A DNA stretch of 64,000 bases from Psychroflexus gondwanensis ACAM 44 (GTDB lineage Bacteria > Bacteroidota > Bacteroidia > Flavobacteriales > Flavobacteriaceae). Shown here one piece after another: positions 18,266 to 25,711 of the stretch; position 1 is the stretch's first letter, and each line of letters starts with the position of its first letter. The position numbers and the translations under genes were made by a program. The notes under the pieces were generated by a model. The model did no database searches, was not told the origin of the DNA, and worked only from the letters and a program-made list of their open reading frames with translations. The DNA lies in contig NZ_APLF01000004.1 in assembly GCF_000355905.1 (NCBI RefSeq), forward strand, positions 124,001 through 188,000. The letters are read 5' to 3'.

Positions 18266-18790
18266 TCAAAATTGAATGGCAAAGTAAAGACCATGATGAG
18301 TTGTCGAGACAGGAATAATTTTAGAAACAATCTTTATAAATGGAAGGCCGTTCTTCAGTTTTAATAACTCTGGTTGCGATGACTCACCAAATTCCATTCT
18401 CAAGTTTTGTAGAAGTTCTTCCATTGAATTGGCGATAAGTGATCGAGTAAACGTTGAATAAGAGACACTACTATAAATATAATTCTCGCTATTAAAGGTG
18501 GTTGTTTTAACAGAGTTTCCCTCGAAATGAACCAAACCGTTTTCTAAATCAATAAGTTCACAATAAAATGCAAAAGGGTTGAAAATTGACTTAAAATTAA
18601 GTTCTCGCTGAAAGGCTTTATAGGCACTTTCTTTCATAGTCCAAAGCCGCCAAAACCTTTGTTCAGGGTTTGGACTTGATAAAACTAAATTTTGTTCATT
18701 TTGAGAAAGTACCTTTTCCATATACCTAGGTCTGAAGATATTTGAATCGGTTTTAGCTTTCTTTAGGTCTACAATGTCATTTCCAATCAC
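18266..18790 (-). CDS. 4'-phosphopantetheinyl transferase
   Basis: This short (174-residue) transferase moves phosphopantetheine from CoA onto a carrier-protein serine. MIGNDIVDL at the start and WRLWTMKESAYKAF (47-60) hold the Mg-binding Asp and the Glu/Lys of the AcpS/Sfp superfamily. It overlaps the stop of the adjacent acyl carrier protein gene by four bases, so its likely substrate is that carrier. It is the last gene of the type III PKS operon. It could also serve other carriers, but the overlap favours a dedicated role. Confidence 0.88.
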   Translation of the reverse strand: MIGNDIVDLKKAKTDSNIFRPRYMEKVLSQNEQNLVLSSPNPEQRFWRLWTMKESAYKAFQRELNFKSIFNPFAFYCELIDLENGLVHFEGNSVKTTTFNSENYIYSSVSYSTFTRSLIANSMEELLQNLRMEFGESSQPELLKLKNGLPFIKIVSKIIPVSTTHHGLYFAIQF

Positions 18791-19041
18791 TTACTTTTAA
18801 GTTTCTTTTGAATCACATTGACAGTCGCTTCTACGCTAATCATTTTTTCCATGTCGTCATTTTCAATCCGGATATCGAATTCATCTTCCACGTCTAGCAC
18901 TACATCCACTAAGTTCGCTGAATTGATTTGCAAATCGTTTATAAAATCGGATTTGGATGTCAAATTATCGAAATTTTCTTGATGATTGACATAAGGTTGA
19001 ACGATAACCTTCAATTTATCCTGTATTGCTTCAGCAGTCAT
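18787..19041 (-). CDS. Acyl carrier protein of the type III PKS operon
   Basis: The 84-residue acidic protein has the four-helix ACP plan. The attachment site is in DLQINSANLVD with Ser41, a variant of the usual DSLD. EDEFDIRIENDDMEKM forms the recognition helix. It is coupled to its phosphopantetheinyl transferase by a four-base overlap and lies downstream of the ketosynthase, dehydratase and reductase genes, so it should carry the growing acyl chain of that pathway. It is not the housekeeping AcpP, whose site is normally DSLD. Confidence 0.87.
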   Translation of the reverse strand: MTAEAIQDKLKVIVQPYVNHQENFDNLTSKSDFINDLQINSANLVDVVLDVEDEFDIRIENDDMEKMISVEATVNVIQKKLKSK

Positions 19042-19238
19042 ATGATCTTTTTGGAAGCAATTTACAAATTAGTTTTCGTAAATCAAGGATATGGGGAGAA
19101 GCCCATAAGGTTTATAGTTGAAGACTGATTTTGGAATTTCAAGGCAAACCTCTAGCAATTACACTTACAATAAGAGATTAAATCAGAAACCATCAAGCCA
19201 CTACAGTTGATATTCAGATTAAAAAGAAGAGATTACAT
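19042..19238. other. Intergenic gap inside the PKS operon
   Basis: This 197-base stretch between the small membrane protein gene and the ACP gene holds no convincing ORF or strong stem-loop. It may contain an internal promoter for the ACP-transferase pair; I could not identify one. Confidence 0.4.
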
Positions 19239-19469
19239 TTATTTTTTAGAACTCAGTTTTAACTTACACCTAAAACTTTCAAAAAGAAAGTTCACTCCTG
19301 TCATAATAGCTATAAGCGATAGTGTTCCTGCTAGAACCCACTTCCAAGTTTCGGCATCACTATGTTTCATAAAGCCACTTTCCACGAGTGCCGAGAGTCC
19401 AAAACCTAGTAATCCCGTTCCTAACCCACCAAATATCCAAAACCGTTTTTTAAGCTGAGTTGTCTCCAT
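19239..19469 (-). CDS. Small two-helix membrane protein in the PKS operon
   Basis: The 76-residue protein has two membrane segments (about 11-31 and 43-64) with a short loop containing SGFMKHSDAETWKW. The start lies 20 bases inside the end of the ketosynthase gene, so it is translated in the same operon. I do not recognise the family. A role in anchoring or exporting the lipid product is possible but is only a guess from position. Confidence 0.7.
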   Translation of the reverse strand: METTQLKKRFWIFGGLGTGLLGFGLSALVESGFMKHSDAETWKWVLAGTLSLIAIMTGVNFLFESFRCKLKLSSKK

Positions 19470-20736
19470 TACTGTATTTTTTCAAAATTACACAAGCGTT
19501 CACATCGCCAAAACCAAAACTAGCTTTAGCGATAATATTCAAGTTCTTTTTTAGTAAAGTCCTAGGGATTTTCTCCTTATCGACTATCTTCAAAATATTT
19601 GGATGTATAGTGTCGCAATTCAAATTTGGAAATATAAAGCCTTGGGATAATTCCAAAATAGAACTCACGAGTTCTACACTTCCTGCTGCGGCCAAGGCGT
19701 GTCCAACATGACTTTTTAAAGAATTGATGTAAGGGAAGTTTTTTCCGGATTTTTGTAAGGCTTCAGACCAATTCTGCACTTCAGTAGCATCCATAGCGGT
19801 AGCGGTAAGGTGAGCATTAATAAGGTCTATATCTTCTGAATTTACTCCTGCCTCTACTAAAGCTTTTGAAATACAACTTTTAACTGCTGAAGAATTAGGC
19901 GCGGTCATACTCCCCTGTTCTCTTTGCCCTCCAGAATTGATACAACCTCCTAAAACTTCAGCATAAATGGGGGCTTCTCTTTCTAGAGCAGATTCCAAAC
20001 TTTCTATAAGCATGGCTCCTGCGCCGCTGGAAGGCACAAAACCAGCTGCAGATTCGCTCATAGGCTTCGAAGCTTCCTCTGGCCTATCATTGTACTGATG
20101 CGGTAAAATACGGAGAGCATCAAAACCACCCCACACATAAGGTCCAGAGTCACTACAACTCCCGACTAACATTCGTTTAGCCTTCCCTGAAGAAATACGG
20201 TCATACCCCATTAGCAAAGCTTCTGTTCCTGTGGTGCAGGCGGAGGAATTGGTGGTAACTTGATTGCCACAGCCTAACTTACCTCCCAGAAAAGCACTTA
20301 TCCCGCTAGCCATTGTTTGCAGAACACTGGTACTTCCCAAGCGTCGGACTTGCTTTTGGTCTATACGGTGAAAGGCTTCTCTCAACTTATCTACACCTAA
20401 AACTCCAGTCCCAAAGATAATTCCTGAGTCTGGATCGACCTCCTCCGTAATGTCCAAACCAGCATCGGCCCAAGCTTCTTGACCAGCAATTCCTCCATAA
20501 ATAAGTCCCGTAGCTAATAAACCCCTTTGCTCCAAAGCGGTAAAATAGGTATCCATAAGCTCTTGAGAAATCTCAGGAATTCCTCCAATCTGACAACTAA
20601 ATTTCAACTCTTTTAAATTTGAATGAAACTGAATTCCACTTTTACCAGATTTTATAGCATCCGTAAAAGGGGAAACCCCAACAGCATTGGATGCCACAAC
20701 TCCTAAACCCGTAATCACTACTCTTTGTGTCTTCAT
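19450..20736 (-). CDS. Beta-ketoacyl-ACP synthase (FabF-like) of the PKS operon
   Basis: The 428-residue condensing enzyme has an intact Cys-His-His triad: Cys167 in TNSSACTTGT, His309 in NAHLTAT and His346 in SHVGHALAAAG. It elongates acyl-ACP with malonyl-ACP. In FabF the first His motif is normally NAHGT; here it is NAHLT, so it belongs to a divergent branch such as those found in Bacteroidota lipid and pigment clusters. It sits two bases after the dehydratase gene and overlaps the next gene. The likely job is making a special acyl starter for the type III PKS. Confidence 0.9.
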   Translation of the reverse strand: MKTQRVVITGLGVVASNAVGVSPFTDAIKSGKSGIQFHSNLKELKFSCQIGGIPEISQELMDTYFTALEQRGLLATGLIYGGIAGQEAWADAGLDITEEVDPDSGIIFGTGVLGVDKLREAFHRIDQKQVRRLGSTSVLQTMASGISAFLGGKLGCGNQVTTNSSACTTGTEALLMGYDRISSGKAKRMLVGSCSDSGPYVWGGFDALRILPHQYNDRPEEASKPMSESAAGFVPSSGAGAMLIESLESALEREAPIYAEVLGGCINSGGQREQGSMTAPNSSAVKSCISKALVEAGVNSEDIDLINAHLTATAMDATEVQNWSEALQKSGKNFPYINSLKSHVGHALAAAGSVELVSSILELSQGFIFPNLNCDTIHPNILKIVDKEKIPRTLLKKNLNIIAKASFGFGDVNACVILKKYSNGDNSA

Positions 20737-20738
20737 AA

Positions 20739-21176
20739 TTAAATTAAAATAACACCTGCGATGTCTCCTCTTAAAATTAAGTCTCCATTGATATTAAACA
20801 TTTTAACCGATGACTTCAACTTATTAAATCTAAAATAAATCTTCTCTGCTTCAATGATGACTTTTTCATCGGGCAAAATGGGTTTTAGAAATTCTATGTT
20901 GGTGCTGGTCATTGCAAGTCGAATCTTCCCTATGTCTGAATTCTTATCTTGAGAAAGTATGAAAAGTCCTAAACTAGCTAAGCCAATCTGAGCAGCACAT
21001 TCGGTGAGAATTACTCCTGGAGTAATGGGATGATCTTTAAAATGCCCTTTATAAAACCAAGAGGAGGCTTTGAAAGTGTAACTGCCTTTTATAAAATCTT
21101 CAGAGACGTCTTCAATTGTATCGACAAACAAAAAAGGGTGTTGATAAGGAAGTTGAGAGATAAGTTTGTTTTTCAA
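20739..21176 (-). CDS. 3-hydroxyacyl-ACP dehydratase (FabZ-like)
   Basis: This 145-residue hotdog protein has catalytic His45 in YKGHFKDHPITPGV and Glu59 in ILTECAAQ, the pattern of FabZ/FabA dehydratases. HPFLFVDTI at 13-21 is also typical. It removes water from 3-hydroxyacyl-ACP. Position between an enoyl reductase gene and a ketosynthase gene makes a dedicated role in the cluster's acyl chain likely. Housekeeping FabZ in Bacteroidota is usually fused to LpxC, so this is a second copy. Confidence 0.88.
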   Translation of the reverse strand: MKNKLISQLPYQHPFLFVDTIEDVSEDFIKGSYTFKASSWFYKGHFKDHPITPGVILTECAAQIGLASLGLFILSQDKNSDIGKIRLAMTSTNIEFLKPILPDEKVIIEAEKIYFRFNKLKSSVKMFNINGDLILRGDIAGVILI

Positions 21177-21244
21177 TAGATTTTAGTTTTGAATATTAAA
21201 ATTACACAGATAATTTAAAACTCCTATTCTACAATGCAAAGTTA

Positions 21245-22027
21245 TTACAAGCTCTCCCCGCCGTCTGCTTTGATGACGGTTCCATTAATCCAATTAGACT
21301 CCTCTAAACTCAGCAAATAGACTACATTGGCAACATCTTCTGGCGTAGTTAAGCGTTTAAAAGGATTTCGTATAATAGCTGAATTTTTTAAAACGTCATG
21401 CCCAGGTATCATTTTAAAAGACTGAGTTTCGACCATTCCAGCTTGAATGCAATTCGCTGTTATTTTAAACTCAGCAAACTCTACTGCCATATACTTCATG
21501 AGCGTTTCTAAACTGGTTTTGGCTACTGAAACGGCAGCATAATGCTTCCACACGCGTTGATTCCCTTCGCTAGTAAAGGCTAATAATTTTGACTGTTCGG
21601 CAAACAATCTGGCCTCAAGGATTGCTTTGGACCAGTCGTAAAAACTATAGGCCATAGCATTGGCGGTGATTTGCAAATCCATCTGATTGAGAGGTGAATC
21701 TCCTGTCATCGCCTTCAAATTTCCTTTAGCGATGCTATGCAAAAGCAGTTTTATCTTACCAGATTCCCCTAGAAGTTTTGGGAGTTCAGTGATAAATTCG
21801 TTTCTCTTTTCTGAATTTATCGCGTCAAAATTAAAGGTTTTCAATTCTACACCACACTGCTTAATCTCTTCAAATCTAGCTTCGATTTCTTGAAAATCAC
21901 TTCGCCTATCTCTATGAATGATAAGTAAATTCCAACCCTGCTGAGCTAACTTTAAGGCTGAAGCATACCCCAAACCTTGACTTCCCCCAAGGATTAAAGC
22001 ATAATTGTGTTGAGATGACTGTGGCAT
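21245..22027 (-). CDS. Enoyl-ACP reductase-like SDR (FabL-like)
   Basis: The 260-residue short-chain dehydrogenase has the nucleotide site GGSQGLG (14-20) and a catalytic Tyr163-X6-Lys170 spacing (YAAVSVAK). Ordinary ketoreductases use Tyr-X3-Lys; the six-residue spacing is that of enoyl-ACP reductases FabI and FabL, and the C-terminal half (VAKTSLETLMKYMAVE, ADGGESL) aligns best with FabL. It would reduce the enoyl-ACP made by the neighbouring dehydratase. No separate ketoreductase is present in the operon, so FabG from the cell probably supplies that step. Confidence 0.82.
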   Translation of the reverse strand: MPQSSQHNYALILGGSQGLGYASALKLAQQGWNLLIIHRDRRSDFQEIEARFEEIKQCGVELKTFNFDAINSEKRNEFITELPKLLGESGKIKLLLHSIAKGNLKAMTGDSPLNQMDLQITANAMAYSFYDWSKAILEARLFAEQSKLLAFTSEGNQRVWKHYAAVSVAKTSLETLMKYMAVEFAEFKITANCIQAGMVETQSFKMIPGHDVLKNSAIIRNPFKRLTTPEDVANVVYLLSLEESNWINGTVIKADGGESL

Positions 22028-22077
22028 AGGTATCCAATTATAAATGAGTTCATATCAAATTCAGAAGAAAATTTACT

Positions 22078-23130
22078 TTACCATTGAAGCAAAATTCTTT
22101 GTGCAGAAAATCCAGGCCCAAAACTTAGCATTAGTCCCTTTTCTCCTTTTTTCATATCTTTCTTTAGCATTCTTTCTAAAACATAGAGAACTGTAGCACT
22201 ACTCATATTCCCAAAAAGCCGAAGCACTTCTTTGGTATCATCTATGTTTTTGCCCATAGCACCAAACAAAGCTTCTACTGTATTAATTATTTTCTTGCCG
22301 CCGGGATGAAAAATAAGATGATTGATGTCTTCTATTTTTGTATCGTTAGCTTTAAGAAAAGGGTGAATAATATCTGGAAAATGATCGCTTATTTTTTCTG
22401 GTACATCTATATCTAAGATCATTTTTAGACCAGAATTAGTCAAGTCGAAACCCATCATATGGGTATCGTTATAAAAATGATACATAGATTCATCTATGAT
22501 TTCCGGACCTTTACAAGCCTCTTCTGAAGACATGAGCACACAGGCAGAACCATCGCCAAAGATGGCAGAACTTACCATATTGGCCATAGACAAGTCATTG
22601 AGTTGAAACGTGGCAGTTGGCGCTTCAAAAGATACAATAGCAGCTCTCTTATTGGGATTGGCTTGCAGAAATTGCTTGGCATAAATCATTCCCGAAATTC
22701 CAGCGGCACAACCCATCTCGGTTACGGGAAGTCTTACGATATCTTGCCGTAATTCCAAATCATTAATCAAGTAGGCATCTAAGGATGGGATCATAATCCC
22801 AGTGCAGCTTACTGTAATGATATAGTCCAAACTTTCTGGCGACCAGTCGGCTTGTTTTAAGGCCTTTTCTAAAACCTTTTTACCAAGTTTCTTCGCTTCA
22901 CGCACGTAGATTCTATTTTTATCCTCAAAAGAAGTCGCTATAAAAACCTCTTCAGGATTCATGATCGAGTAGCGTTTATCTACTTGAGCGCCTTCAAATA
23001 TTTTGATGACCTTTCGTTGAAATCTTTCGTCTTCATCTGCCAACCAAGTCTCTACAAAAGGAATAATATCTTTTGTTTCCTTAAAATATTCTGGATTCTG
23101 GGTAGCAACCGTTTCTATCTTAACACTCAT
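22078..23130 (-). CDS. Type III polyketide synthase (chalcone synthase-like)
   Basis: The 350-residue enzyme has the type III PKS triad: Cys141 in EMGCAAGI, His275 in FHPGGKK and Asn308 in FGNMSSATV. SCTGIMIPSLD (108-118) and GDGSACVL (192-199) are also conserved. Such enzymes extend an acyl starter with malonyl-CoA and cyclise to alkylresorcinols, alkylpyrones or phloroglucinols. A methyltransferase gene overlaps its start by four bases and a flavoprotein lies before that, as in the Streptomyces srs phenolic lipid operon. The product here cannot be read from sequence. Confidence 0.94.
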   Translation of the reverse strand: MSVKIETVATQNPEYFKETKDIIPFVETWLADEDERFQRKVIKIFEGAQVDKRYSIMNPEEVFIATSFEDKNRIYVREAKKLGKKVLEKALKQADWSPESLDYIITVSCTGIMIPSLDAYLINDLELRQDIVRLPVTEMGCAAGISGMIYAKQFLQANPNKRAAIVSFEAPTATFQLNDLSMANMVSSAIFGDGSACVLMSSEEACKGPEIIDESMYHFYNDTHMMGFDLTNSGLKMILDIDVPEKISDHFPDIIHPFLKANDTKIEDINHLIFHPGGKKIINTVEALFGAMGKNIDDTKEVLRLFGNMSSATVLYVLERMLKKDMKKGEKGLMLSFGPGFSAQRILLQW

Positions 23131-23837
23131 GAGCTATAAATAATCCACTGGTATCGGAAAGCCCAATACCATTTGATGTGGTGTTTTAGGTTTAAATTTT
23201 TGGCGTAAGTTTCAAAATCTTTTGCCTTAAAGCCTCTTAAGATGGAGGTTAATCCATCTTTCCTTGCAATATCTGAATTTACAAAGACTAGACAATAGAG
23301 TTTAAAAAGTTGATAGGCTAATTTATGTCTATGTAAATCGTTAATAAGCACGCCGTATTTTGTTTTTTTTTCAAGTACGGGGAGCAGTTTTTCTATAAAT
23401 TGATCTTCAAAATGATGAAGAGTTAAGCAGCACGTGATAATATCAGCTTGGAAATACTCAAAGTCCTCACTAAACACATCAATGACCCGATAAGAGATAT
23501 TCTTATAATCTACAGACAATTCTCTTGCAATCTCAATAGTATGTGGATTGGCATCTATGCCTATAAGTTGAAGGTTGAAATCTTGTGATTTTGCCCATTT
23601 GGAAATATGGCGTAAAGCATCTCCACTTCCACAGCCTAGATCCGCTATGACTAAATGTTTTTGATTTCTATCTTTCAGTAATGTTTTAATTCCCTCAATA
23701 GTTGCTCTGTGTCCCCCAAGTTGTGTATTGATTCTATCTATTGTAGCAAGGACGTGCTTAAGATCTTCTCCCTTAAAATCGAAACCATCCATGATTTCTT
23801 CTTGCTTACTTCTTTTTTTGGTTGAAATAGTACTCAT
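23127..23837 (-). CDS. Class I SAM methyltransferase of the PKS operon
   Basis: The 236-residue protein has the SAM motif DLGCGSG at 66-72, an acidic residue after strand 2 (GIDANPHTIE) and CCLTLHHFED in the motif region after strand 4. This matches UbiE/Coq5-like small-molecule methyltransferases. The start at 23837 is fixed by an ATGA overlap with the flavoprotein gene before it; an open frame extends further upstream inside that gene but has no support. Likely substrate is the phenolic or pyrone hydroxyl made by the type III PKS. Confidence 0.88.
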   Translation of the reverse strand: MSTISTKKRSKQEEIMDGFDFKGEDLKHVLATIDRINTQLGGHRATIEGIKTLLKDRNQKHLVIADLGCGSGDALRHISKWAKSQDFNLQLIGIDANPHTIEIARELSVDYKNISYRVIDVFSEDFEYFQADIITCCLTLHHFEDQFIEKLLPVLEKKTKYGVLINDLHRHKLAYQLFKLYCLVFVNSDIARKDGLTSILRGFKAKDFETYAKNLNLKHHIKWYWAFRYQWIIYSS

Positions 23838-24949
23838 TGAATTGGCTTTCCGTGGGTTTGCTGAATCATTTTTTTTAGCAAAAAGGGTGATTTTAAAACC
23901 ATCCACATTCCATAACGGGTGAGTTGAGGTTGCAATAATATCTTTTGAAAAATAGACCCGAAAATAAGTCTTTTTTGAAAGGTTTTCTTCCAAATACGCG
24001 AATAATTCGCTTCCAGTTTATCTCGATCTTTATGTTCGAAATAGCTCTTTATTTCATTAGAAACTAACTTGGCAGAATGTATAGCCATTGCCATACCATT
24101 TCCACACAAAGGATGAATGAGCCCTGCAGAATCTCCTGCCATAAGCATATGCTGTTCTACAGCCTTTTTATTTTGAAAAGAGACTTGAGAAATGGCTAGA
24201 TGCTTTTCGAAATCCATTTCAGAATTCTCTAAAAAAGATTTCAGATAGGGGTTTTGCGATAAGATTTTCTGGTTAAAATCTTCAATTGATTTTGCTTTTT
24301 TAAAGGTATCGTAATGAGCGAGATAACAAAAATTGACTGACCCAGTTTCTGTTTTTGATAATCCACAATACCCGCCCTCAAAATTATGCAATTGAACTAA
24401 ACCTTCAGGAAAATCAGTTGATGTATAGTGAGCTTTTATCCCAATCCAAGGGGTTTTTTGAGTAATGAAAGATCTATCCATCTTTTTATCTATGTTGGAG
24501 CGCTTCCCATAACTCCCAATCGCTAGGATAGACATAAAGGTTTGTTGTGCAGTTTTGATAATAAAGCGGTCATCGATAAATTCAATATCAGTTACCGTTT
24601 CAAAAACGAAATCAACTCCATTGGCTTTCGCTTTTTTAAACAAGAGATGATCGAAAGCATACCTTGAAATACCAAAGCCTCCGAGTGGTAGTTTTATTTC
24701 AACAAGTTGGCCTTTTCTGTCGCTCAATTGAAGGCGGTTAATATGATCTGGCGGAGTCGTTTCAAAGTTGACTCCCAAGCGATTTAAGTAGGGAAGCACT
24801 TCGTTGGAAACATATTCTCCACAAACTTTATGTTTTGGATAGTTGTCTTTTTCTACGAGCAGAACTCGCAAACCATCCTTAGATAAATCTATTGCAGAGG
24901 TGAGCCCCGCAAGACCACCACCAACTATAATGACATCATATATGTTCAT
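23834..24949 (-). CDS. FAD-dependent oxidoreductase, geranylgeranyl-reductase/hydroxylase type
   Basis: The 371-residue flavoprotein starts with a Rossmann motif (IIVGGGLAGL, 7-16), has KVCGEYVS (41-48) and the second FAD motif MAGDSAGLIHP (270-280) with CGNGMAMA after it. It fits the p-hydroxybenzoate hydroxylase fold group that includes geranylgeranyl reductases and phenol hydroxylases. First gene of the operon, it could hydroxylate the ring made by the type III PKS, as SrsC does in Streptomyces. A reductase role on an isoprenoid or acyl chain is the alternative. Confidence 0.87.
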   Translation of the reverse strand: MNIYDVIIVGGGLAGLTSAIDLSKDGLRVLLVEKDNYPKHKVCGEYVSNEVLPYLNRLGVNFETTPPDHINRLQLSDRKGQLVEIKLPLGGFGISRYAFDHLLFKKAKANGVDFVFETVTDIEFIDDRFIIKTAQQTFMSILAIGSYGKRSNIDKKMDRSFITQKTPWIGIKAHYTSTDFPEGLVQLHNFEGGYCGLSKTETGSVNFCYLAHYDTFKKAKSIEDFNQKILSQNPYLKSFLENSEMDFEKHLAISQVSFQNKKAVEQHMLMAGDSAGLIHPLCGNGMAMAIHSAKLVSNEIKSYFEHKDRDKLEANYSRIWKKTFQKRLIFGSIFQKILLQPQLTRYGMWMVLKSPFLLKKMIQQTHGKPIQ

Positions 24950-24970
24950 TCTTGAAATTTAGGCATAAAA

Positions 24971-24997
24971 AAAATCCTAAAGTTGATTTAGGATTTT
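24971..24997 (-). terminator. Rho-independent terminator after the OmpA gene
   Basis: Arms AAAATCCTAAA and TTTAGGATTTT with a five-base loop; read on the minus strand the stem is followed by a run of eight T. It lies between the OmpA-lipoprotein stop and the flavoprotein start, so it closes the upstream transcript before the PKS operon. Confidence 0.85.
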
Positions 24998-25015: not shown

Positions 25016-25711
25016 TTATTGAGCTTTTTGTCTTGCTTCATCTTTTAACTCTTCACTGGCTACAATGGCGAGTTCTACTCTTCGATTTTTAGACCGACCT
25101 TCTGGAGTAGTATTATCAAACTTAGGCTGCTCTTCTCCATACCAATTGGTATTGATCCTTGAAGTAGATATCCCATTACTACTTAAGTAGTCGGTGACTG
25201 ATTGAGCTCTTCTTTTGGATAAGTCCATATTATAAGAATCACTCCCTGTAGAATCGGTATGGCCTTCTACAATAATATTTGTTTTAGGATACTTTTGAAA
25301 AATGCCGATCAATTTCAAAAGAGAAATTTCAGATTCCCCAGCAATATTAGATTTTTCAGTAGCAAAATAGACCCCTGAATTTTCGTCGAAAGTCACATTA
25401 ATTCCTTCTCCTACTCTTGTGACTTCTGCTCCAGGTATTTCTTGATCAATATCTTTAGCTTGCTTGTCCATTCTATTACCGATATAAGCACCAGCAGCGC
25501 CACCAACAACCCCTCCTATAATAGCGCCAAGAACAGAATTATCACCGTCTCCTGTGTTATTACCAATAACTCCGCCAATTACAGCTCCACCGGCAGCTCC
25601 TGCAGCTCCACCTCTTTGAGTCTTATTAGTATTTTTAACCGCTTCACAAGAGCTAAATAAAAAAGCAATGGCTAATAATAGTCCTAGTATTTTGTTTGTT
25701 TTTAATTTCAT
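25016..25711 (-). CDS. OmpA-family lipoprotein with glycine zipper
   Basis: The 231-residue protein has a lipobox (FSSC, Cys22), a glycine-zipper segment (about 34-82, GAAGGAVIGGVIG and GAIIGGVVGGAAGAYIG) and a C-terminal OmpA domain (about 108-218) with VEGHTDSTGS and NRRVELAI, the peptidoglycan-binding pattern. It should tether the outer membrane to the cell wall. It follows the lipocalin lipoprotein gene by three bases on the same strand and is closed by a strong terminator. Confidence 0.92.
   Translation of the reverse strand: MKLKTNKILGLLLAIAFLFSSCEAVKNTNKTQRGGAAGAAGGAVIGGVIGNNTGDGDNSVLGAIIGGVVGGAAGAYIGNRMDKQAKDIDQEIPGAEVTRVGEGINVTFDENSGVYFATEKSNIAGESEISLLKLIGIFQKYPKTNIIVEGHTDSTGSDSYNMDLSKRRAQSVTDYLSSNGISTSRINTNWYGEEQPKFDNTTPEGRSKNRRVELAIVASEELKDEARQKAQ

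Follow-up and report, generated by a model that had tools for sequence, protein, structure and literature searches.

Why should an operon for a type III polyketide synthase (T3PKS) carry its own set of fatty-acid genes? This question is raised by a stretch of 64,000 nucleotides from Psychroflexus gondwanensis ACAM 44 (contig NZ_APLF01000004.1, positions 124,001 to 188,000, forward strand; hereafter the window), in which nine collinear minus-strand genes occupy positions 18266-24949. Herein, we propose that the cluster probably makes a phenolic lipid with a decorated ring, in which a dedicated supply of chains bound to an acyl carrier protein (ACP) feeds the T3PKS, and a methyltransferase (MT) and an FAD-dependent oxidoreductase (FMO) tailor the product. 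The dedicated supply is supported because the ketosynthase (KS) and the T3PKS co-occur almost perfectly, the set of dehydratase (DH), KS and ACP is nearly constant, and a housekeeping FabG is present. A preliminary description of this DNA had reported nine consecutive minus-strand genes, several overlapping by four bases; all nine were found, with three such overlaps, in the following order.

23834..24949, minus strand: FMO, an FAD-dependent oxidoreductase of the group A monooxygenase / geranylgeranyl (GG)-reductase superfamily, proposed ring hydroxylase (PF01494, 50 bits)
23127..23837, minus strand: MT, a class I S-adenosylmethionine (SAM) methyltransferase that is proposed to methylate the ring at C or O (PF13649, 45 bits)
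22078..23130, minus strand: T3PKS, with Cys141-His275-Asn308 (PF00195 and PF02797, above cut-off)
21245..22027, minus strand: FabL-like enoyl-ACP reductase (ER), with Tyr163-X6-Lys170 (NCBIfam FabL, 142 bits, under the cut-off of 328)
20739..21176, minus strand: DH, a FabZ-like 3-hydroxyacyl-ACP dehydratase with a TTG start and His45/Glu59 (PF07977, 53 bits)
19450..20736, minus strand: KS, a FabF/FabB-like ketosynthase with Cys167-His309-His346 (PF00109 and PF02801, 89 bits)
19239..19469, minus strand: small membrane protein (SMP), accessory, with two predicted helices and the motif ESGFxKH (two hydrophobic stretches in relatives)
18787..19041, minus strand: ACP, with the attachment motif NSANLVD and Ser41 (Pfam, 17.7 bits, under the cut-off of 20.8)
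18266..18790, minus strand: 4'-phosphopantetheinyl transferase (PPTase), with a GTG start (PF01648, 54 bits)

The coupling of the two halves was followed in a family sample of 299 Flavobacteriaceae genomes from 236 genera and in a sample of 296 genomes from across the phylum (T3PKS match threshold 1e-20). In the family sample, the KS ortholog was observed in 101 genomes, the ER in 96 and the T3PKS in 104, one of which (G365) holds only a 33% relative, leaving 103. All 101 KS genomes hold the T3PKS, and 101 of the 103 T3PKS genomes hold the KS; likewise, the KS is present in all 25 phylum-sample genomes with a close T3PKS. The two genes start less than 6 kb apart in 97 of the 98 genomes that have both on one contig, the remaining genome (G475) having its halves 355 kb apart, and they lie on different contigs in G433, G560 and G359, the last a draft of 240 contigs. 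When the split genomes G475, G433 and G560 were fetched, each half was complete, the pieces being FMO-MT-T3PKS-ER and DH-KS-ACP with the break between ER and DH. Since the co-occurrence persists without linkage, it is the strongest evidence that the halves work together, and the comparison of genomes supports the view that the T3PKS acts as a single unit with the fatty-acid genes.

The same gene order had been thought worth seeking in other genomes, and FMO-MT-T3PKS-ER-DH-KS was kept, beyond what chance would give, in all 22 named loci, which came from a T3PKS scan of genome contigs and belong to Psychroflexus, Salinimicrobium, Salegentibacter, Maribacter, Croceitalea, Flagellimonas, Winogradskyella, uncultured Flavobacteriaceae and two Taibaiella. 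The ACP follows in 21 of these (the contig of L024 ends first), the PPTase in 17 and the SMP in 10. A T3PKS match was obtained in 131 of the 296 phylum genomes, 25 of the cluster kind and 106 distant, with identities dropping from 66% directly to 37% and nothing between. Loci were fetched for 24 of the 25 close matches (the window's own excluded) and for 36 of the 106 distant ones. After one duplicate was set aside (L055, a repeat of L007), 45 distinct related clusters besides the window were available; all are collinear and contain FMO, MT, T3PKS, DH and KS, all but L024 contain the ACP, and 29 hold the ER inside the cluster (L055 uncounted). No KS, DH or ACP match was found around the 36 distant T3PKS loci, for each of which 11-20 kb was fetched. 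In one genome (G439, L137:7206-10166), FMO and T3PKS are each split into two open frames, a decaying or mis-sequenced copy.

Which parts of the fatty-acid set are constant in the cluster was judged on a tree of 55 clusters, which was built from five proteins by a quick method and leaves 18 of its 52 inner branches open. The presence of the ER switches eight times on this tree and that of the PPTase twice, and KS, DH and ACP are nearly constant across clusters; the private constant core is thus KS, DH and ACP, with the ER dispensable. In 16 of the 25 genomes of the phylum-sample set, no part of the genome gave an ER match at 1e-25. Moreover, the statement of the preliminary description that the cluster lacks a ketoreductase (KR) holds for the nine genes of the window and extends to the internal gaps of more than 250 bases in the related clusters listed; the inserts in L017, L071, L073 and L134 are not reductase-like by eye. 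Because the ER is variable and a KR is never in the cluster, the KR, and the ER where it is missing and needed, must be borrowed. The natural source of the borrowed steps would be the genome's own FabG (C5:240393, 340 bits, above the cut-off of 298) and FabI-like protein (C4:234105, 143 bits, below cut-off), the latter 23% identical to the cluster ER over 175 columns. The genome also encodes a FabF-like protein (31% identity with the KS of the cluster), one other PPTase (C7:13854) and, as the sole other FabA/FabZ-family domain, a FabZ-type domain inside a 470-aa frame, presumably LpxC-FabZ. These gene counts support the cluster set as additional to the housekeeping copies. Polyenes from ER-less clusters were considered as one product class and are not preferred; given the eight changes of the ER, replacement by a housekeeping reductase fits better.

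Based on these results, the following route is proposed. The PPTase would activate the dedicated ACP, on which the dedicated KS and DH would build the acyl chain, while housekeeping FabG would contribute the ketoreduction and either the cluster ER or a housekeeping FabI would reduce the enoyl group. The ACP would then hand the chain over to the T3PKS, which would add malonyl-CoA units and close an aromatic ring, probably that of a 5-alkyl(enyl)resorcinol. Finally, in an order that may differ, the MT would methylate the ring and the FMO would hydroxylate or otherwise oxidise it. A membrane or redox role might be expected of such a product. CylI, which is near the T3PKS in sequence and model, has been solved with acyl, beta-ketoacyl and resorcinol ligands. 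The cyclisation type could not be read from ArsB Trp281, a position that was unmappable as ArsB and ArsC were not among the PDB matches listed.

Several observations weigh against this proposal. The support comes from genes and sequences, and product, expression and enzyme activity are all predicted. Of the two T3PKS genomes lacking the KS, G577 (L130) has a contig ending inside that gene, and G427 (L129:7087-10990, 99% complete) carries FMO-MT-T3PKS-ER only, DH-KS-ACP being absent from the fetched portion of a 15.9 kb contig; the T3PKS may therefore not need these three genes. Stops inside the aligned stretch are listed for 26 of the 101 KS matches, whose open frames nevertheless span at least 423 aa; we read them, taken together, as probable alignments running beyond the true stop. 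Of the 55 tree rows, 22 have no ER (six of these were fetched for that reason) and 15 have no PPTase, and in the family sample 9 of the 103 T3PKS genomes lack the ER. Away from any close T3PKS, DH-KS-ACP was observed in 4 of the 296 phylum genomes (L145-L148), with KS 45-49% identical. Halogenases are the best Foldseek matches of the FMO, and the 197-base gap between the SMP and ACP genes leaves a single transcript unproven. The earlier claim that a dedicated ACP system feeds the T3PKS stands in that the system is coupled to the T3PKS and additional to the housekeeping copies, and gives way in that the ER is not constant and DH-KS-ACP is not always beside a T3PKS.

Other explanations of the same genes were considered. 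FabA-FabB and FabN-FabO divert fatty-acid intermediates into unsaturated chains, and the DH-KS pair might act in the same way on its private ACP to give an alkenyl- or polyenyl-phenol, the ER setting only the degree of saturation. The near constancy of DH, KS and ACP, together with a KR that is never and an ER that is not always in the cluster, would suit this possibility, as would the confinement of the genome's only other FabA/FabZ-family domain to the 470-aa frame. The best PDB sequence match of the KS is 3u0f, a 'beta-ketoacyl synthase' (177 bits) that we take to be FabB-type, the best named synthase 2 (FabF) reaching 161 bits. However, NCBIfam ranks FabF over FabB for the KS (250 versus 221 bits), and the DH carries the FabZ-type Glu, with no isomerase evidence; we therefore regard this diversion as unlikely. 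It is still less probable that the product of the final KS step, a beta-ketoacyl-ACP, is used directly by the T3PKS, much as CylI accepts beta-ketoacyl thioesters. The structure of CylI in complex with a beta-ketoacyl substrate is indeed the second-best fold match, and the lack of a KR in the cluster gaps would be accounted for. Nevertheless, the cluster contains the DH and usually also the ER, both of which require a reduced intermediate, and the genome's FabG is a simpler account of the missing gene.

The T3PKS might instead start from malonyl-CoA alone, like DpgA or THNS, and make a small aromatic that the KS set extends or acylates. DpgA is the best NCBIfam model of the T3PKS (NF042429, 170.7 bits), and THNS is among the nearest structures, a VSCTG stretch being common to both proteins. 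However, the DpgA cut-off of 425 bits is not reached, PKS11 is top by sequence, PKS11 and CylI are top by fold, and no DpgB-D-type partner is among the nine genes. The cluster T3PKSs form one clade (support 100) on the side of PKS11, CylI, THNS and the ICMT-neighbouring T3PKSs of other Bacteroidota, with forks partly open; the cluster clade, THNS and PKS11/CylI share one open fork, which gives no decision on the malonyl-CoA start, and we consider that start very unlikely on the remaining points. Alternatively, two independent pathways might share one site, T3PKS-MT-FMO(-ER) making a lipid and DH-KS-ACP forming a pathway of its own. DH-KS-ACP is also found elsewhere with other neighbours, and the splits fall between ER and DH. 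A KS without a T3PKS, however, was found in none of the 101 KS genomes of the family sample, even where the two are unlinked, which makes independence the least likely of the alternatives and highly improbable.

Returning to the cluster as a whole, the relatives of each half suggest how it might have arisen. Within the sample, the FMO and the MT have their closest relatives (36-43% and 31-41% identity, respectively) in five loci with another T3PKS group (L104, L110, L111, L113 and L114), themselves T3PKS-MT-FMO triads. By clustering, four of the five have a UbiA-like neighbour, two of which were checked by Pfam, and prenylated phenols or quinones are possible products there. The four unlinked DH-KS-ACP units fall outside the T3PKS-linked clade of the KS tree (support 99). 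In L145 (8279-11786 and 13462-16041), ER-DH-KS-ACP-PPTase is divergent from a DarB/DarH flexirubin-type cluster and 1.7 kb from DarB (635 bits, cut-off 550), and the distant T3PKS of that genome sits on another contig. In L146 (9100-14246), a glycosyltransferase neighbours GNAT-ER-DH-KS-ACP, and a BioF/serine-palmitoyltransferase-like gene lies a few kb away; L147 (8609-12856) and L148 (7325-11686) read GNAT-DH-KS-ACP-glycosyltransferase. The GNAT-family proteins of L146-L148 have 378-416 aa (two that were compared are 46% identical), the glycosyltransferases are of GT2, and these loci possibly serve a further lipid pathway that has its own chain supply.

Overall, the cluster gives the impression of two modules brought together. 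Beyond this, we tentatively suggest, with more doubt than confidence, that Bacteroidota use DH-KS-ACP, in many cases together with ER and PPTase, as a portable cassette for private acyl supply, distinct from housekeeping fatty-acid synthesis, and that this cassette has become attached to three or more unrelated lipid-head systems. The proposed head systems are T3PKS-MT-FMO (Flavobacteriaceae and sporadically two other families), the DarB cluster (one genome of family f3) and the GNAT-glycosyltransferase locus (three genomes of family f23). This suggestion is weakened because all four genomes with an unlinked unit (G099, G046, G077 and G127) also hold a distant T3PKS elsewhere (31-34% identity). 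Distant T3PKSs occur in 106 of the 271 genomes without a close one, so that four of four would arise by chance with a probability of 0.023; in these genomes, the unit may therefore act in trans for a T3PKS. If the cassette were real, cells could generally reserve a special chain for a single membrane lipid in this manner, with KS, DH and ACP private and the KR (as well as any absent ER) borrowed.

The individual proteins were compared with curated families and structures; a Pfam match was obtained for eight of the nine, that of the ACP lying below the curated cut-off. The T3PKS belongs to its class, with the Cys-His-Asn triad, the CHS N- and C-terminal domains and the thiolase fold. It is 83-90% identical to Psychroflexus proteins, PKS11 is its highest-scoring match in the PDB sequence search, and its model (pLDDT 85.0) is best matched in Foldseek by PKS11 and CylI (TM over the query 0.87-0.92; 0.90 to PKS11). 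The T3PKS triad had been described as intact and a Tyr-X6-Lys motif had been noted in the ER, and both are conserved in the cluster alignments: Cys141, His275 and Asn308 are invariant in 61 rows, and Tyr163-X6-Lys170 is found in every genuine ER row printed, the single exception being an unrelated SDR in L062. FabL 3oic is the sole match of the ER in the PDB at 1e-20. In the KS, Cys167, His309 and His346, and in the DH, His45 and Glu59, are invariant in 59 rows. NCBIfam scores were 250 bits for the KS (FabF cut-off 494), 62 for the DH (FabZ, 113) and 46 for the ACP (71); because these, like that of the ER, are far under the curated cut-offs, the four proteins are best classed as broad-family members rather than standard FabF, FabZ, FabL and ACP equivalogs. 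The fatty-acid proteins are separate polypeptides of 84 to 428 aa.

Ser41 of the ACP is invariant in 58 rows, and the full NSANLVD is present in 49 of 57 locus rows, in clusters both with and without the PPTase, which appears to weaken the idea that the PPTase is paired with an unusual ACP motif. However, the eight variant rows (NSAHL, NSSHL or NSTHL; L123, L125, L131, L132, L133, L136, L137 and L138) all lie within the 16 PPTase-less rows. The PPTase motifs GND..D and KE...K are invariant in 42 rows. The FMO (114 bits to NCBIfam GG-red-SF, under the cut-off of 159) gave an AlphaFold2 model with a pLDDT of 86.7, and its Foldseek matches, at similar scores, descend from halogenases to a GG reductase-like protein, UbiI and 3-hydroxybenzoate 6-hydroxylase. 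The model indicates a group A-type flavoprotein, for which hydroxylation seems the likelier role and halogenation a less likely one. The stretch HPLCGNGM presumably resembles that of hydroxylases and GG reductases, a likeness and not a test. The MT reached 126 bits to PRK06202, under the cut-off of 243, and most likely starts at the ATG at 23837 rather than at the upstream TTG of the mechanical open reading frame. The SMP matched no family in Pfam or NCBIfam. Eight strong SMP matches were found in the 299 family genomes, all in T3PKS holders and six at the cluster; since 17 of the 18 weaker matches fall in T3PKS-less genomes, the SMP was rejected as a cluster-only part and is called accessory.

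The layout of the genes, in a host genome of 3.31 Mb split over 62 contigs, suggests that all nine are likely on a single transcript. Four-base overlaps join FMO and MT (23834-23837), MT and T3PKS (23127-23130), and ACP and PPTase (18787-18790), and KS and SMP overlap by 20 bases; the other gaps measure 50 bases (T3PKS-ER), 68 (ER-DH) and 2 (DH-KS). An OmpA-like lipoprotein gene (25016-25711) flanks the cluster upstream of the FMO. Between this gene and the FMO start, a hairpin with a T run was read by eye at 24967-24997; it could be the end of the upstream transcript or part of the FMO leader, and the terminator scan did not report it. The predicted terminators (5 versus 5.7 expected) and promoters (35 versus 24.9 expected, sd 5.4) of both strands were not used, nor were the TANNTTTG boxes across the whole window (112 versus 85 expected). 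In two related genomes, G325 and G541 (loci L121:8657-9448 and L122:8860-9651), an intact ER stands alone at the site of the cluster in relatives, beside an OmpA-like gene like the one flanking the cluster in the window, and in L122 a weak T3PKS remnant precedes it.

Type III PKS clusters are common among the predicted biosynthetic clusters of Flavobacteriaceae, and a conserved form with its own ACP-based chain builder is a defined target, as it would point to a lipid common to 103 of the 299 sampled genomes. The cluster also offers a discrete type II system for chain transfer from an ACP to a type III PKS, which the parts of the literature available here describe for type I systems, and the clusters that naturally lack the ER or are split already provide variants for such a study. 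T3PKSs make up 10.74% (PMC10734526) and 9% (PMC7440613) of the predicted flavobacterial clusters, no product being named in the passages covered, and other or predicted T3PKS clusters, without a product for the flavobacterial one, appear in PMC7587189, PMC3098273, PMC12565237, PMC9323603, PMC9860996 and PMC10752948. The product was not found in the open-licence papers searched, as judged by titles and abstract starts, which fits the earlier statement that it is undescribed in flavobacteria. The earlier interpretation is partly supported: it was largely right in outline, with starter, ring chemistry and product still inferred.

Among the known systems, the nearest T3PKS relatives in the phylum sample are those of the T3PKS-ICMT pairs of other Bacteroidota (up to 37% identity), which we presume to be like BpsA/BpsB. 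Their neighbour is an ICMT-family methyltransferase in 19 of the 35 loci analysed (PF04140 checked on one) and, unlike in the cluster, no FMO or KS set was found. Among flexirubin DarB clusters, that of L145 lies close to an ER-DH-KS-ACP-PPTase set of the same family; DarB is a KAS III-type enzyme, whereas the cluster has a T3PKS, and none of the nine proteins gave a DarB match in NCBIfam. In the cylindrocyclophane pathway, an ACP-bound chain is passed to CylI, a T3PKS that forms a resorcinol (PMC8086630), as in the route proposed here, and CylI is among the nearest structures; however, type I PKSs elongate the chain there, and the tailoring is different. The Azotobacter ars operon is likewise similar in that a dedicated fatty-acid synthase (FAS) supplies the T3PKSs, ArsB and ArsC taking acyl chains directly from the ACP of the FAS ArsA (PMC6274091). 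However, ars uses a type I FAS, whereas the cluster has single-function type II proteins with no multidomain FAS gene in the operon and no KR encoded; MT and FMO, both present in the cluster, are not mentioned in the available part of the ars account (PMC6274091). The preliminary description had drawn an analogy to srs, and this is borne out by the T3PKS-MT-oxidoreductase triads of Planctomycetota, cyanobacteria and actinobacteria, whose products are alkylresorcinols or quinones (PMC10896814, PMC9927152), including an operon with polyketide quinones (PMC9927152) and the hierridin and alkylresorcinol-making planctomycetal operons (PMC10896814). The srs/pkq/hid and planctomycetal operons, like the cluster, combine a T3PKS, a SAM methyltransferase and an FAD oxidoreductase, so that a ring-modified resorcinol lipid is expected (PMC9927152, PMC10896814); T3PKS, MT and FMO are adjacent in one direction in the window and in the 45 distinct related clusters. 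These operons, as far as described in the parts available, have mostly three genes, and the scheme for the planctomycetal route shows starters activated with CoA, whereas the cluster adds a discrete KS-DH-ER-ACP-PPTase set. Overall, this real, coupled and widespread cluster is a new form of T3PKS operon, akin to the FAS-fed or triad-type ones already known.

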